Source: Urechis unicinctus
Lineage: Eukaryota > Annelida > Polychaeta > Xenopneusta > Urechidae
NCBI GenBank assembly: GCA_034190875.2
Contig: CM067346.1
Span: forward strand, 9,105,883 to 9,169,882
Reading direction: 5' to 3'
Length of the DNA stretch: 64,000 nt
The notes under the pieces are model-generated. The model made no database searches, was not told the DNA's origin, and saw nothing but the letters and a program-made list of their open reading frames with translations. Both the position numbers and the translations under genes were made by a program. This document shows, one piece after another, positions 1 to 64,000 of the stretch (position 1 is the first letter of the stretch; the number at the start of each line of letters is the position of its first letter).

Positions 1-552
1 GAAGTATATATTGCACTTGGGGAGGGAAAACGCTTATTAGTATCAGCACATGTGCAGGCCTCCATAAAGGGCATCTATTTAACGATCTGGAACACAAAGA
101 AGGCGGTTCTGCTGAATGCGGTTGAATAGAGCAATGTCGTTTAGGAGCCATAGTTGATCAATCATTCCGTTGAAAAAGCTAGAGGATTAGCACTCTCCCT
201 AAAGTAGTTGTATCCAGCTGGCTAAGACAGAAGTTTGACCCAATATAAAAGGGGAAAAACAACGCCTGTCAACAGCGAGTATGTAAGCGGCAAACAAGTA
301 ATATGCGTATATGGACCGCAATATGAAACGCCTGAAACATTGAAGCAGCGTAACATTCAGAGGAGCGACAGCTTGAACACAGAGCCGACGTAATTAATAA
401 CAGACACACCACACACTGGTGCTAAATACATCACAAAACCTTATGTGAAAATGCCACTTGGTTTACAATGACAATAGATAATGTCGTCAATGCCTGAAAT
501 TATTTTCATTCAACGTCTCGTGTCTAAAACATATATGTTTACTCATAAAGAA
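1..552. other. Non-coding start of visible unit A
   Basis: No gene or recognisable element. It matches 41,415-42,369, which has about 400 extra bases at 41,720-42,135. The match includes the 'CGCTTATTAGTATCAGCACA' block and the 'GAGCGACAG' block, and it ends where both copies enter a TA microsatellite. Confidence 0.6.
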
Positions 553-2822
553 ATATATATATATATATTACCAAATAAATATATATGATCATGATCATAT
601 ATATATATATATATATATATATATATATATATATATATATATATATATATATATATATATATATATATATATATATACATACATATATATAAATATATAT
701 ATATATATATATATATATATATATATATATATTTACTCATAAATATATATATATATATATAAAAAGAAATATATATATATATACAAATAAATATATATGA
801 TCACGACCATATATATATATATATATATATATATATATATATATATATACACATATATATATAATATATATATATTTAAATACATATATATATATAAAAA
901 TATATATATCTTTATATAGATATATATATTATTATATATATATGCACATATATACATATACATATGTATAAATACGTAGATACAAATAAAGTTATTTGTA
1001 CAATGTTAAAAACAAGAATATACATGATGTATATATATATATATATATATATATATATATATATATATATATATATATATATATATATATTTATACATAC
1101 GTATATTTATATATATATATATATATATATATATATATATATATATATATATATATATATATATATATATATATAGAAGATGTGTTTTTAGCTCTTTAAA
1201 AATAAGTAAATGATTATGTAAACATTAACAAAAATAAAAATATATTGATATATATATATATGTTCATATATATATATGTAATATGTACATATATATATAT
1301 GTATATATATATATATATATATATACATATCTGCATTTATGAATATGTATTTATACATATATATTAATAGTTATGTATGCATACAACAAAGGTTGTTGAT
1401 TTCCTTGCGAATAAAAATATATATAAATAATTATGCATGAATTAGAATATATATATATATCTATATAGATGCATATATACATATAAATGTATACTATATA
1501 TATATTTTTTATATATATGAATATATTTACAAAAAAAATACAATATAGATAAATAGTAAGGTATGTATATATAAAAGAGCATAATACAATATATACATAT
1601 ACATGAGATATATATATATACTTACATATACATATGTAAATGCATATATATACATGTGTGCGCATATATATACAGATATATCTATATTTATATATTTACA
1701 CAGATATATTCGTACATATATTTGCATGCAAAAAGGATTGTTAATTTTATTCCGAATATATATAAATATATATATTAAAAAATATATATATAAGAATATA
1801 TATTAATAAAAAATATAAATATATATATAAATATTTATCGAGACATAAACGTCTATAGATATGTGAAATGTCTTAATAAATATGAATTTATATTAGCAAA
1901 AAAAATACATGTGTTTACACAAAAGAAATATACATACTTTCATATCTGCATATTAATGTACATATATGTAAAATATATACATGTTATCTAGCAAAGGTAT
2001 GTATATATAGATGTACATATATAAATATATGCTTATATATGACATATATATATATAAACATACATATATGCATATATACATATACATACATAAATGCATC
2101 TTTGCGCATATATATACAGATATAGCCATATTTGTATATTTACACAGAAATCATCAAAGTTATATGTGCATATAGATATAGACACGTATCAATATGTATG
2201 ATATAGATATTTATATAAATTTGAATATATATTAACAAAAATACATGTTTAATTAAATTGAAATATACATATATTTAGGTATGCATATAAAGTTTGTGCA
2301 TATATATATTTATATATGTATCTAAAAATTATATATATATATATTTAAATATATATTACACAGATATTATCATCATGCAAGCATATATATATATTTATAT
2401 AGATTTATATATATGTATATATATCTATATTGTTTATATATCTATACGCATATATATATATAGGTTGACACAAATATATGTATATAAACATGTTTGTATA
2501 TATATATATAATATATATAATTTATATATATATATATATTTAATATTATATATATAAATATCAATATATATATGCATGTATGGATATATACATATATAAA
2601 TGTTACAGATCTATTAACATATATATTATATAAATATATATATATATATGTATCTAAAAATATATATATATGAAATATATATATGTATATATATATAAAT
2701 ATATATATATATTATATATATACATGCATATACATATATATATATATATATATATATATATATATATATATATATATATATATATATATGTATAGATATA
2801 TATATATATATATATATATGTG
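553..2822. repeat. Very long compound TA-rich microsatellite block
   Basis: About 2.3 kb of (TA)n mixed with CATA, AAATA, TGTATA and short A/T-rich spacers. At 583-610 there is a palindromic interruption built on TATATGATCATGATCATATA, with a near repeat at about 797-812. All open frames here are Tyr-Ile repeats and are not genes. The matching place in copy B (42,370-42,513) is a clean (TA)n of about 140 bp, so this block grew, or B's shrank, after the duplication. Confidence 0.95.
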
Positions 2823-4036
2823 CTTATATGATTTACATATTACTGATAGATCGGCATAAATATGTCCCTTAAATAACCAGTTGCTATTCCAATGGTCAGG
2901 AAAAAAAAAAAGTTTTATGATTTTTTTAGCGGTTTGACCACCTCAATTATTTAGCATCATGCATGTTGCATTAAAACTATTGGTTAAAGTGATGCCGTTA
3001 TCATCTATTCATGAAGTTTGAGCGTCCAGAATATTCGTCTTGTTTAATTTATAAAATATACGTTTAGACTTGGGATAAATAACATTAATTTGTATGCTTT
3101 AACTACGCTAGATTACGTACCCAACTCAATGCCCCTGTGCCAGTCTGCTTCAAAGATAACCCAACAAACCTATCTCATCCTTATTGTTAACCGTAATGCC
3201 ACCGAGACTAGCTCAGACTCTAGTGCGAATTGTAAAAACAGCAATACCAAATCAAAGACATCAACCTTGCGCAATTTGGATCAACACCTTTCTTCACATT
3301 GTTGGTTTCAGATAGAAAACACCAAAGTGTTTATAATGCACACTATGTGACGAACGTAATCTCAACCGAAAAAGCAACGATAGACGCTAAGATTCAACGA
3401 ATAAATCGCATTCCTGCCCATAACGGAGCTTTTTCTATGTTAAGTTATTTGTGTAAACATACACTATTCCAATATTGAGAGCAATTTTTTTGAAAATATC
3501 TAGTTTTTACGATTTCATTGACTTTGTAGCCCTATATTTATATAGCGTGAACAAATCTTGTCGCAAATATGATTCAAACAATAATGTTCCGCAATACGAT
3601 ATGGTATAAACTGCATTCGTTTTGTGTCTGATGCATCTCACACTGTTTGCAATGATACCGTTATTCTCACAATTAAACAGGTTATTTGGTACCCATCATA
3701 GGAACAGCTATTATTGACAACCTATTTAAGAGTTCTGGAATAGGTTGTGGAGATAGCAGCGATGCATTATGGTTCAACCTGCTGGCGGTTGTAGAGCCAT
3801 TTCAGTAACTTATTATACATGTATTCTCTTCATTCATGCCATATGTTTCCTTATATTTCAGTGCTGGATAAATGCCTCGTAAATTGTGCTGAGGTTTACA
3901 ACGTTGAATCGCGCTTCCTTTTGGAGGTAAATAAAGACCAGTCTGCATGCGCTGTACAAACAGGGCTTCGCTTTGTATTATTTTGATGAAACAACGTCTA
4001 TCATTATCTCTGAATTAAGCTGTTAGAAAATGTATG

Positions 4037-61800: not shown

Positions 61801-61815
61801 GGTACAATATTAACT

Positions 61816-62019
61816 TTGTGTTTTGTTTTATGTAGTGTTGTGGTTTGGTGGAAGGGAGGAAAAAAGTTTGGTATTTATATTCTCATCTTTCTTTGCAGAG
61901 ATGATGGTGTTTGCAAACATGTTGTGGCCAATGCAAAGTCTAATCAAGCATTACCGCCTGATGAAGAAATATGTCGCACGGCTTGTCGCCTTGATTATTG
62001 TGTTGTCTGGCAATTGTAA
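61816..62019 (+). other. Possible exon fragment with a SWIM-like CxH motif
   Basis: The frame contains RDDGVCKHVVANAKSNQAL followed by CRTACRLDYCVVW and a stop. 'GxCKHVVA' is the second half of a SWIM zinc finger (CxC-xn-CxH), but the first CxC pair is not present in the frame. Just upstream, CTCATCTTTCTTTGCAG|A fits a 3' splice site at about 61,900. The motif lies in text that copy A lacks (about 61,735-61,970). The overlapping frame 61,823-62,191 (122 codons) uses the same bases in another phase. The call is tentative. Confidence 0.22.
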
Positions 62020-64000
62020 CTACACAATCAATATACTTGTCACGTCATTAACACATCTGACGGAAACTTTACTGTCATCAACGGGTGTTTGTTTGCTTTC
62101 AGTCCACTATGGTGCAAGTAAACATGGGCATTGTTGCTTCCGCCCCGTCTATATAGTCTACAGAACGATATTCTTAAACATTTGCCTCTAACTAACACCA
62201 AAATAAAACAAAAAACAACGAATATTCACCACAGCTTAAATATCTATGTTCCGCATCGTGTATTGCGTTTGCGTTTTGGAAAAAAAACATGCCCTAACTA
62301 CCGGTTGAAAATCAAAATTGCCTCCTGACGGCTGTGATGGAAGCCCGAGAATGCGAAGGCAGGGATTGACGGACCGGTCTTCAAAAGGAAGAACGGCGTC
62401 CAATTAGACAAATAATATGATTGTATACAAGTGCACTCCTCCGTCGCATTCCATCCTTGATACTTGATAAAAATTAGAGTCATTGTGACTATGTCAAGCA
62501 TTGGGACACGCTGATGTCCGCATAATATGGCTTTGTGAGACACTATCGTGTTTTTTTTAGTGATTGGTTCAAGTATTGAGCACTTACAAACGGTTGGTCA
62601 AGCCCAATGGTGAATATCAAAGTCCGTTGTGAAAATTGCAACGCCATTATGAAAATTATCGGATCATTGTGCAGGAAGACAGCAACTTGCTACGTGAGGA
62701 ACTGCAACAATTATCTGGCATCGTTTACTCAGCTGTTCAGCCCAGCGTTAGCAAAACCGTATCATCCAGTATTGATCCAATTAACCATGAAGCTGTCCTA
62801 ACATTCGATGCAAATTTGCGCAGTGAGTGACATATTCCAAGGCAAAGAGATTATCGGTTACTACATCATATCATCAAGTTTTAAAATCGCACCACTAAGA
62901 CAATCACCATCGACGAGTAATCCTTTTCCATGTTGATTCGTCACGTATCAGCTACATCATGAGGAAGTTGAGCTACACGGCAGCCAGCTTATGATCAATA
63001 TTTCATCTCAATTTCTTAAATATTTACTTTCCACAGAATGGAACTATGTAAATGATGCTAATTATTTTGTCCCGGTCAGAAACCAGACAATATGTCTATT
63101 ACATATGTCTACGACATGTCATGCACCTGGCCCGCACGAATGCATATTAGTATGACAGATAGAGAGCTTCGGCATGAATTGACTTGTTTCAAACGCCTGG
63201 TATTGTTGCCTCCACCGACACAGCCCCCTCCACGCTTAGGGATTAAAGAGAAGGCACCGCGCACACGCGATAGTTTACAAGATTGAAGATACACAAATTA
63301 TACTGCTACTAAGTAGTATGAAGATCCGATTGAATAGTGCCCACAATAATGCAAATATAATAACTCGAATGCAAAAAACAAACAATGACAGATAAAGATA
63401 TTCGTGAGGAAATGAAAGCATCATTTACTAAACAACGACATCAATTTAAATTCCTTGAAATCTAAATGCTTGGAAGGAAGCATTTGACTTTAACACATCA
63501 TAATGTCAAGAAATATTCCTCGAGGTGTATTTACAATGTATCTGACCTATTATTCAACATCTCCATATTGTATTGTCGTCAGGAATCAGTTGAAAAATGC
63601 TTTTTTGGGAAGGTATGAGCATGCCGCTTTTTTTAAGACAGCTCGGTCGTTGCATGCACACAATACTGGCATCTGCCGTTTATTGCACGTGATATGTGAC
63701 GGCATTCATGATTCTTAGGTGCATTACATAAAAGCACATGGTCACAGCAGGAGAAAACTAGCGCGAAACCATTTGCCCGTCCATTCCATCAAAAAGTTAT
63801 GGACATTGCATCAAAATCACACTTGACGGTTTGCAATACTTTTGCTAGCAGTTATATCAGCACCAACGTGCCATTTTTCTGTGATTTTTCATTGATTGCA
63901 CCGTGTGACACTGCGGGCATCATTATCTGTTTACTGGTATATTCATTATATTTGTTGAAATAAAGCACAGGAATCAGATTGTTACCCTTCAGGTCGTGAT
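62020..64000. other. End of visible copy B
   Basis: Partner of about 25,100-26,362. About 460 extra bases at 62,505-62,975 carry a plus frame (62,636-62,830: LLREELQQLSGIVYSAVQPS), unrecognised. The dispersed repeat related to 27,905-28,035 is at 63,500-63,640. Confidence 0.5.
63500..63640 (+). repeat. Dispersed repeat fragment (related to 27,905-28,035)
   Basis: See the partner for shared blocks. Here it sits at the place that corresponds to about 25,900-25,985 in copy A, where only a short remnant is left. Confidence 0.5.

Follow-up and report, generated by a model that had tools for sequence, protein, structure and literature searches.

A contig of Urechis unicinctus, C5 (CM067346.1), carries a repeat with a unit of about 40 kb, which raises the question of whether so large a repeat is a gene array, a satellite or something else. 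We analysed a stretch of 64,000 nucleotides (hereafter the window) and, for self-comparison and chaining, added 110 kb to its left and 100 kb to its right, giving 274 kb in total, while the interval 9.27-9.70 Mb was covered by similarity searches alone. Negative coordinates denote bases to the left of window position 1 and coordinates above 64,000 denote bases to the right of the window. The match counts of genome searches with cluster probes are lower bounds, as these searches score the best candidates and two of the match lists are truncated.

Self-comparison of the window aligns 8-26,363 with 41,422-63,998 collinearly and in direct orientation at 66-90% identity, and chaining with the flanks extends this pair (copies A and B) to -13,574..28,221 and 31,164..67,288, in 37 pieces with 21,344 aligned columns and 80.2% identity with gaps counted. 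Both procedures confirm the head-to-tail repeat proposed in an initial annotation of the window, but the copy ends given there (1 and 26,362 for A, 41,410 and 64,000 for B) are cuts made by the window, and the ends of the unit lie elsewhere. A second chaining yielded 41 pieces, with about 21.0 kb of each copy aligned and substitutions at 14.5% of the bases compared (K2P 0.161); identity is 85.5% without gaps and 80% with gaps. The aligned fraction is about 50% in A and 58% in B, the remainder consisting of private insertions, AT-rich repeats or unalignable sequence. Since A and B each carry their own insertions, the offset between them is not constant, starting at 44.7 kb on the left and shrinking to 39.1 kb on the right, and the 41.4 kb of the initial annotation is therefore a single local value. 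As in a tandem duplication, the two copies are adjacent, collinear and in one orientation, and their divergence and private insertions support the earlier view of an old duplication with both copies drifting.

Table 1. Positions of the window, the two copies and the features discussed in the text (window coordinates unless C5 or a locus is given).
Feature	Position	Strand	Remarks
Window	C5:9,105,883-9,169,882		genome 1.19 Gb, 926 contigs
Copy A, part in window	1..28221	+	starts 13.6 kb left of window, C5:9,092,308; from chain and K2P 0.161
Copy B, part in window	31164..64000	+	ends 3.3 kb right of window; from chain and K2P
Ig-type exons without stops	L031:4680-6250 = C5:9,000,562-9,002,132 (-105.3 to -103.75 kb)		V-set pair (split) plus C2-type exons; left edge of cluster
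Motif resembling an Ig-domain end (C..DxGxYxC)	13,491-13,805	-	counterparts in B at 49,234-49,437, in copy C at L029:7218-7466
(CATA)97 array	28237..28621		marks where A-B similarity ends; B counterpart is (ATAC)n at 67,344-67,793
Sub-block, mostly unit B	28814..40775	+	partial recurrences at about -93..-80, -73..-67, -49..-37, -35..-29 and -13..-4 kb
Long degenerate AT-rich repeat, copy A	553..2819		GC 20% in 1-2,000
Insertion private to copy A, putative transposon	7492..11609		inverted arms 7,645-7,780 / 11,406-11,541, 74% over 140 columns
Conserved island with short ORF	41089..41202	+	core 41,143-41,202 (60 bp)

At the place of the long AT-rich repeat of A, copy B has 150 bp of (AT)n (42,372-42,521), and DNA resembling that repeat matches many chromosomes. 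The largest insertion in the window, 4.1 kb long and private to A, corresponds to a site of 65 bases in B; we read it as a putative transposon because sequences 95-99% identical to one of its ends (11,400 to about 11,567) occur on many chromosomes, and its ORFs (9,028-10,539) gave no significant Pfam match. The coincidence of the right edge of A with the CATA array is a single one: chain ends overall are not enriched near arrays (13 of 115 within 250 bp of one, against 15.2 expected), and a role of microsatellites as breakpoints is not supported. Rfam gave 0 matches in the window at the gathering score and no family match at five flank loci, and a tRNA search of the window found none.

The duplication extends well beyond A and B. 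Within the 274 kb, 36 chains comprise 700 or more aligned columns, two of them inverted and most 70-85% identical, and further copies occur out to 9.754 Mb, bearing out the suggestion that more units may exist. Together they make up a mosaic on a single chromosome in which direct duplications are mixed with inverted ones, traced from about 9.006 Mb to 9.754 Mb or beyond, which includes a collinear copy C near 9.70-9.73 Mb (K2P 0.187 to A, 0.169 to B) and other pieces at 9.276, 9.341, 9.615 and 9.751-9.754 Mb. The units at -98 and -57 kb are separated by K2P 0.162; younger tandems of 14.8 kb (K2P 0.032) and 2.4 kb (K2P 0.006) are also present, along with a 5.1-kb pair that is 99% identical at a distance of 14.7 kb and another pair with 95% identity over 10.3 kb. 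As the measured pairs span K2P 0.006 to 0.187, duplication must have recurred. Of the predicted 41-kb ladder of diagonals, offsets of 40.8, 79.3 and 121.7 kb are present, but so are many others (e.g. 14.8, 29, 37, 52, 62 and 102 kb). This irregular spacing, together with inverted segments and recent tandems of small size, does not fit a regular array built from a single 41.4-kb unit.

Three window probes matched only this locus among the matches listed (20,139-22,552, 6 of 6; 36,284-40,775, 16 of 16; 40,842-41,721, 3 of 3), and a left-flank probe had 14 of its 15 listed matches in the cluster, the other being 105 bases on contig C3. The remaining probes match outside the cluster too, through stretches that are AT-rich or otherwise repeated and through the end of a transposon. 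Judged by the locus-specific probes tried, the cluster is confined to one locus. We consider it probable that A and B represent an old, non-coding tandem duplication of 36-42 kb within a larger, locus-restricted cluster, produced by recurrent local duplication and followed by neutral drift.

The locus was searched for genes at the level of ORFs, codons and exon profiles. Filtering left 329 window ORFs with a length of 50 aa or more, and a Pfam scan of 300 of them (the 29 shortest omitted; E up to 0.05) returned 25 families, the best being RoxA-like (E 0.00056, one ORF) and Integrase_H2C2 (E 0.003, two ORFs). With 300 ORFs scanned, we put the RoxA-like cytochrome match down to chance or low complexity, and no convincing host protein domain was found among the ORFs scanned, so the earlier description of the window as mostly non-coding and free of a gene array holds for the ORFs tested. 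The flank scan covered 142 of 903 ORFs, namely the 150 longest less eight (seven in L020, some overlapping a LINE, and one in L014). This LINE-type element, with reverse transcriptase and endonuclease in several open stretches, lies on the minus strand of the right flank (L020:3255-5608, about 77.3-79.6 kb). GDSL-lipase-like ORFs also occur in the flanks (L028:8345-9023); one flank ORF has a Pfam match at E 3.9e-6 and is tentatively assigned here by reading of the sequence.

Coding scans based on reading frame and a third-position rule, with simulated 90-base windows as the yardstick, were applied to a 264-kb stretch. Of its 1256 overlapping stop-free windows, 40 (3.2%) reached z of at least 2.5 and followed the third-position rule, on rounded values. 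Out of 300 simulated windows each, 2 passed without constraint (0.7%), 35 with omega set to 0.5, 134 with 0.2 and 288 with 0.05. By this yardstick the duplicated DNA is nearly free of constraint, although the observed rate exceeds the simulated unconstrained rate, which counts against a neutral reading, and a few weak or short exons may lie within it. Two exon candidates were rejected: one recurring at 38.8-39.5 kb on the minus strand, in which stops break two of five copies, and a conserved patch at 45.2-45.5 kb, which has no common reading frame among the copies looked at.

The stop-free exons at the left edge of the cluster (V-set 9.2e-5, 23.0 bits, under the cut-off of 26; C2-set_2 9.5e-5, 22.8 bits, over the cut-off of 21), together with exon relics in two units, suggest another origin, in which the units would be tandemly expanded Ig-superfamily genes with very long introns and small exons that were missed. 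We consider this unlikely. In an Ig gene cluster most units would contain a gene that is intact or can be recognised, and what was found is one edge gene and two relics. A genome search with the C2a exon found 23 places, 17 of them without stops, and only three on C5, namely the stop-free edge gene and broken copies at 9,007,316 and 9,048,141; relatives of the C2 exon without stops occur on contigs C2, C3, C8, C9, C13, C15 and C17. The same stop codon and the same deletions, of 31 bases and of 1 base, occur in both broken exons, indicating that the C2 fragment was probably dead prior to the copying of the unit and hence that selection on the dosage of the edge gene does not explain the duplications, although these common defects could instead stem from later sequence exchange among copies. 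Profiles built from the edge gene and four relatives reached, beyond the edge gene itself (a self-match by construction), C2a in the two relics only (E 9e-8 and 7e-6); the other matches among the 40 listed had E of at least 0.3, none of them above the reversed-sequence control (best E 0.25). The sister gene on contig C2, over its 3.4 kb, matches itself alone. The minus-strand motif near 13.6 kb, open in A and in its counterparts in B and C, is consistent with the Ig origin, but 4-base and 2-base indels surround it in A, and in Pfam the motif of A scores Ig_6 at E 0.089 while those of B and C match no Ig family. A gene may exist in the interval 9.27-9.70 Mb reached by similarity searches. On contig C8, an amino-acid tandem repeat frame (GVYELVLWCV-like, L036:2487-3303) adjoins an Ig-type gene.

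A function without coding, with the array retained for its repeats as the source of a long RNA or small RNAs or as a chromatin element, is suggested by the island near 41.1 kb, whose core has a mean identity of 98% to two other copies while the rest of the block stands at 79-88%. Such a function seems quite unlikely to us, as the copies differ widely (half or close to half of their length does not align, and private insertions are numerous), the island block has three matches in the genome (among those listed), its fold is no better than that of shuffles on the plus strand (z 0.11; minus strand z -2.12), and the window and the five flank loci hold no Rfam family. No stop interrupts the island ORF at 41,089 in any of the three copies, its end differs in copy B, and its dN/dS of 0.46-0.87 is not decisive and does not show purifying selection. 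Also doubtful is a persistent hot spot that would have kept duplicating non-coding DNA over a very long period and at various scales (2 to 45 kb), without a gene on which selection could act, combined with a possibly functional transcript or element in the island (41.09-41.20 kb), of which there are three copies, spaced by about 41 and 60 kb. An assembly artefact, in which haplotypes or repeats were wrongly joined, is very improbable: N occurs in two flank stretches, but the window contains none, A and B are 14.5% substituted, and several more copies lie at other spacings. The misjoined haplotypes that the initial annotation had named as its own refutation are thus unlikely.

Recurrent local duplication followed by drift remains the preferred reading, and the A/B repeat has the look of ordinary genome decay, though on a large scale. 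An initial tandem duplication may have arisen beside a receptor-type gene of the Ig superfamily, taking along an already dead piece of it; over a long time, unequal exchange or replication slippage between copies would then have generated more copies in both orientations, and these would have drifted neutrally while gaining private transposons. Against neutrality stand the unusually conserved 41.1-kb island and the Ig-like minus-strand motif that is open in all three copies.

Among known systems, ribosomal DNA arrays have a unit of similar length, but the rRNA genes of such a unit are not among the Rfam results for the window, which number 0 at the gathering score. Segmental duplications are usually defined by a length of at least 1 kb and an identity of at least 90%. 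The cluster resembles the segmental (low-copy) duplication clusters of animal genomes in being large, locus-restricted, mosaic and of mixed age, with direct and inverted copies and pseudogene fragments; it differs in that A and B, at 80% gapped and 85.5% ungapped identity, are older than the 90% threshold, which the 95%/10.3-kb and 99%/5.1-kb pairs exceed, and in that almost no genes were found. Another comparison is with macrosatellites, of which DXZ4, an array with a 3-kb unit, is reportedly one. Macrosatellites are described as large tandem units, some gene-free, whose expansion is presumed to proceed via unequal crossing over, with 3.3-kb units in the human 4q35 array and 12-kb units in a chromosome 8 array (PMC2588610). 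The likeness to these and to gene-free megasatellites lies in the large tandem units, some of them without genes (PMC2588610), but where the units named there measure a few kb to 12 kb, the cluster here has units of about 40 kb in few, strongly diverged and rearranged copies, and regular, near-identical units are absent from it. Amplification at an unselected yeast locus is similar in that copies were gained without selection for the amplified DNA and flanks underwent low-order duplication, but it is recent and was seen in engineered laboratory strains, with up to 880 copies (PMC4856073). A literature search for similar clusters returned no paper for gastropods.

The locus is thus of a known kind, an old, large, gene-poor duplication cluster, and is somewhat unusual in its size, its mixed ages and its apparent lack of genes. 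For large repeats in animal genomes, a gene array or a satellite is not the only option. With copies graded from K2P 0.006 to 0.187 among the measured pairs at one gene-poor locus, the cluster asks whether duplication persists without selection on genes.
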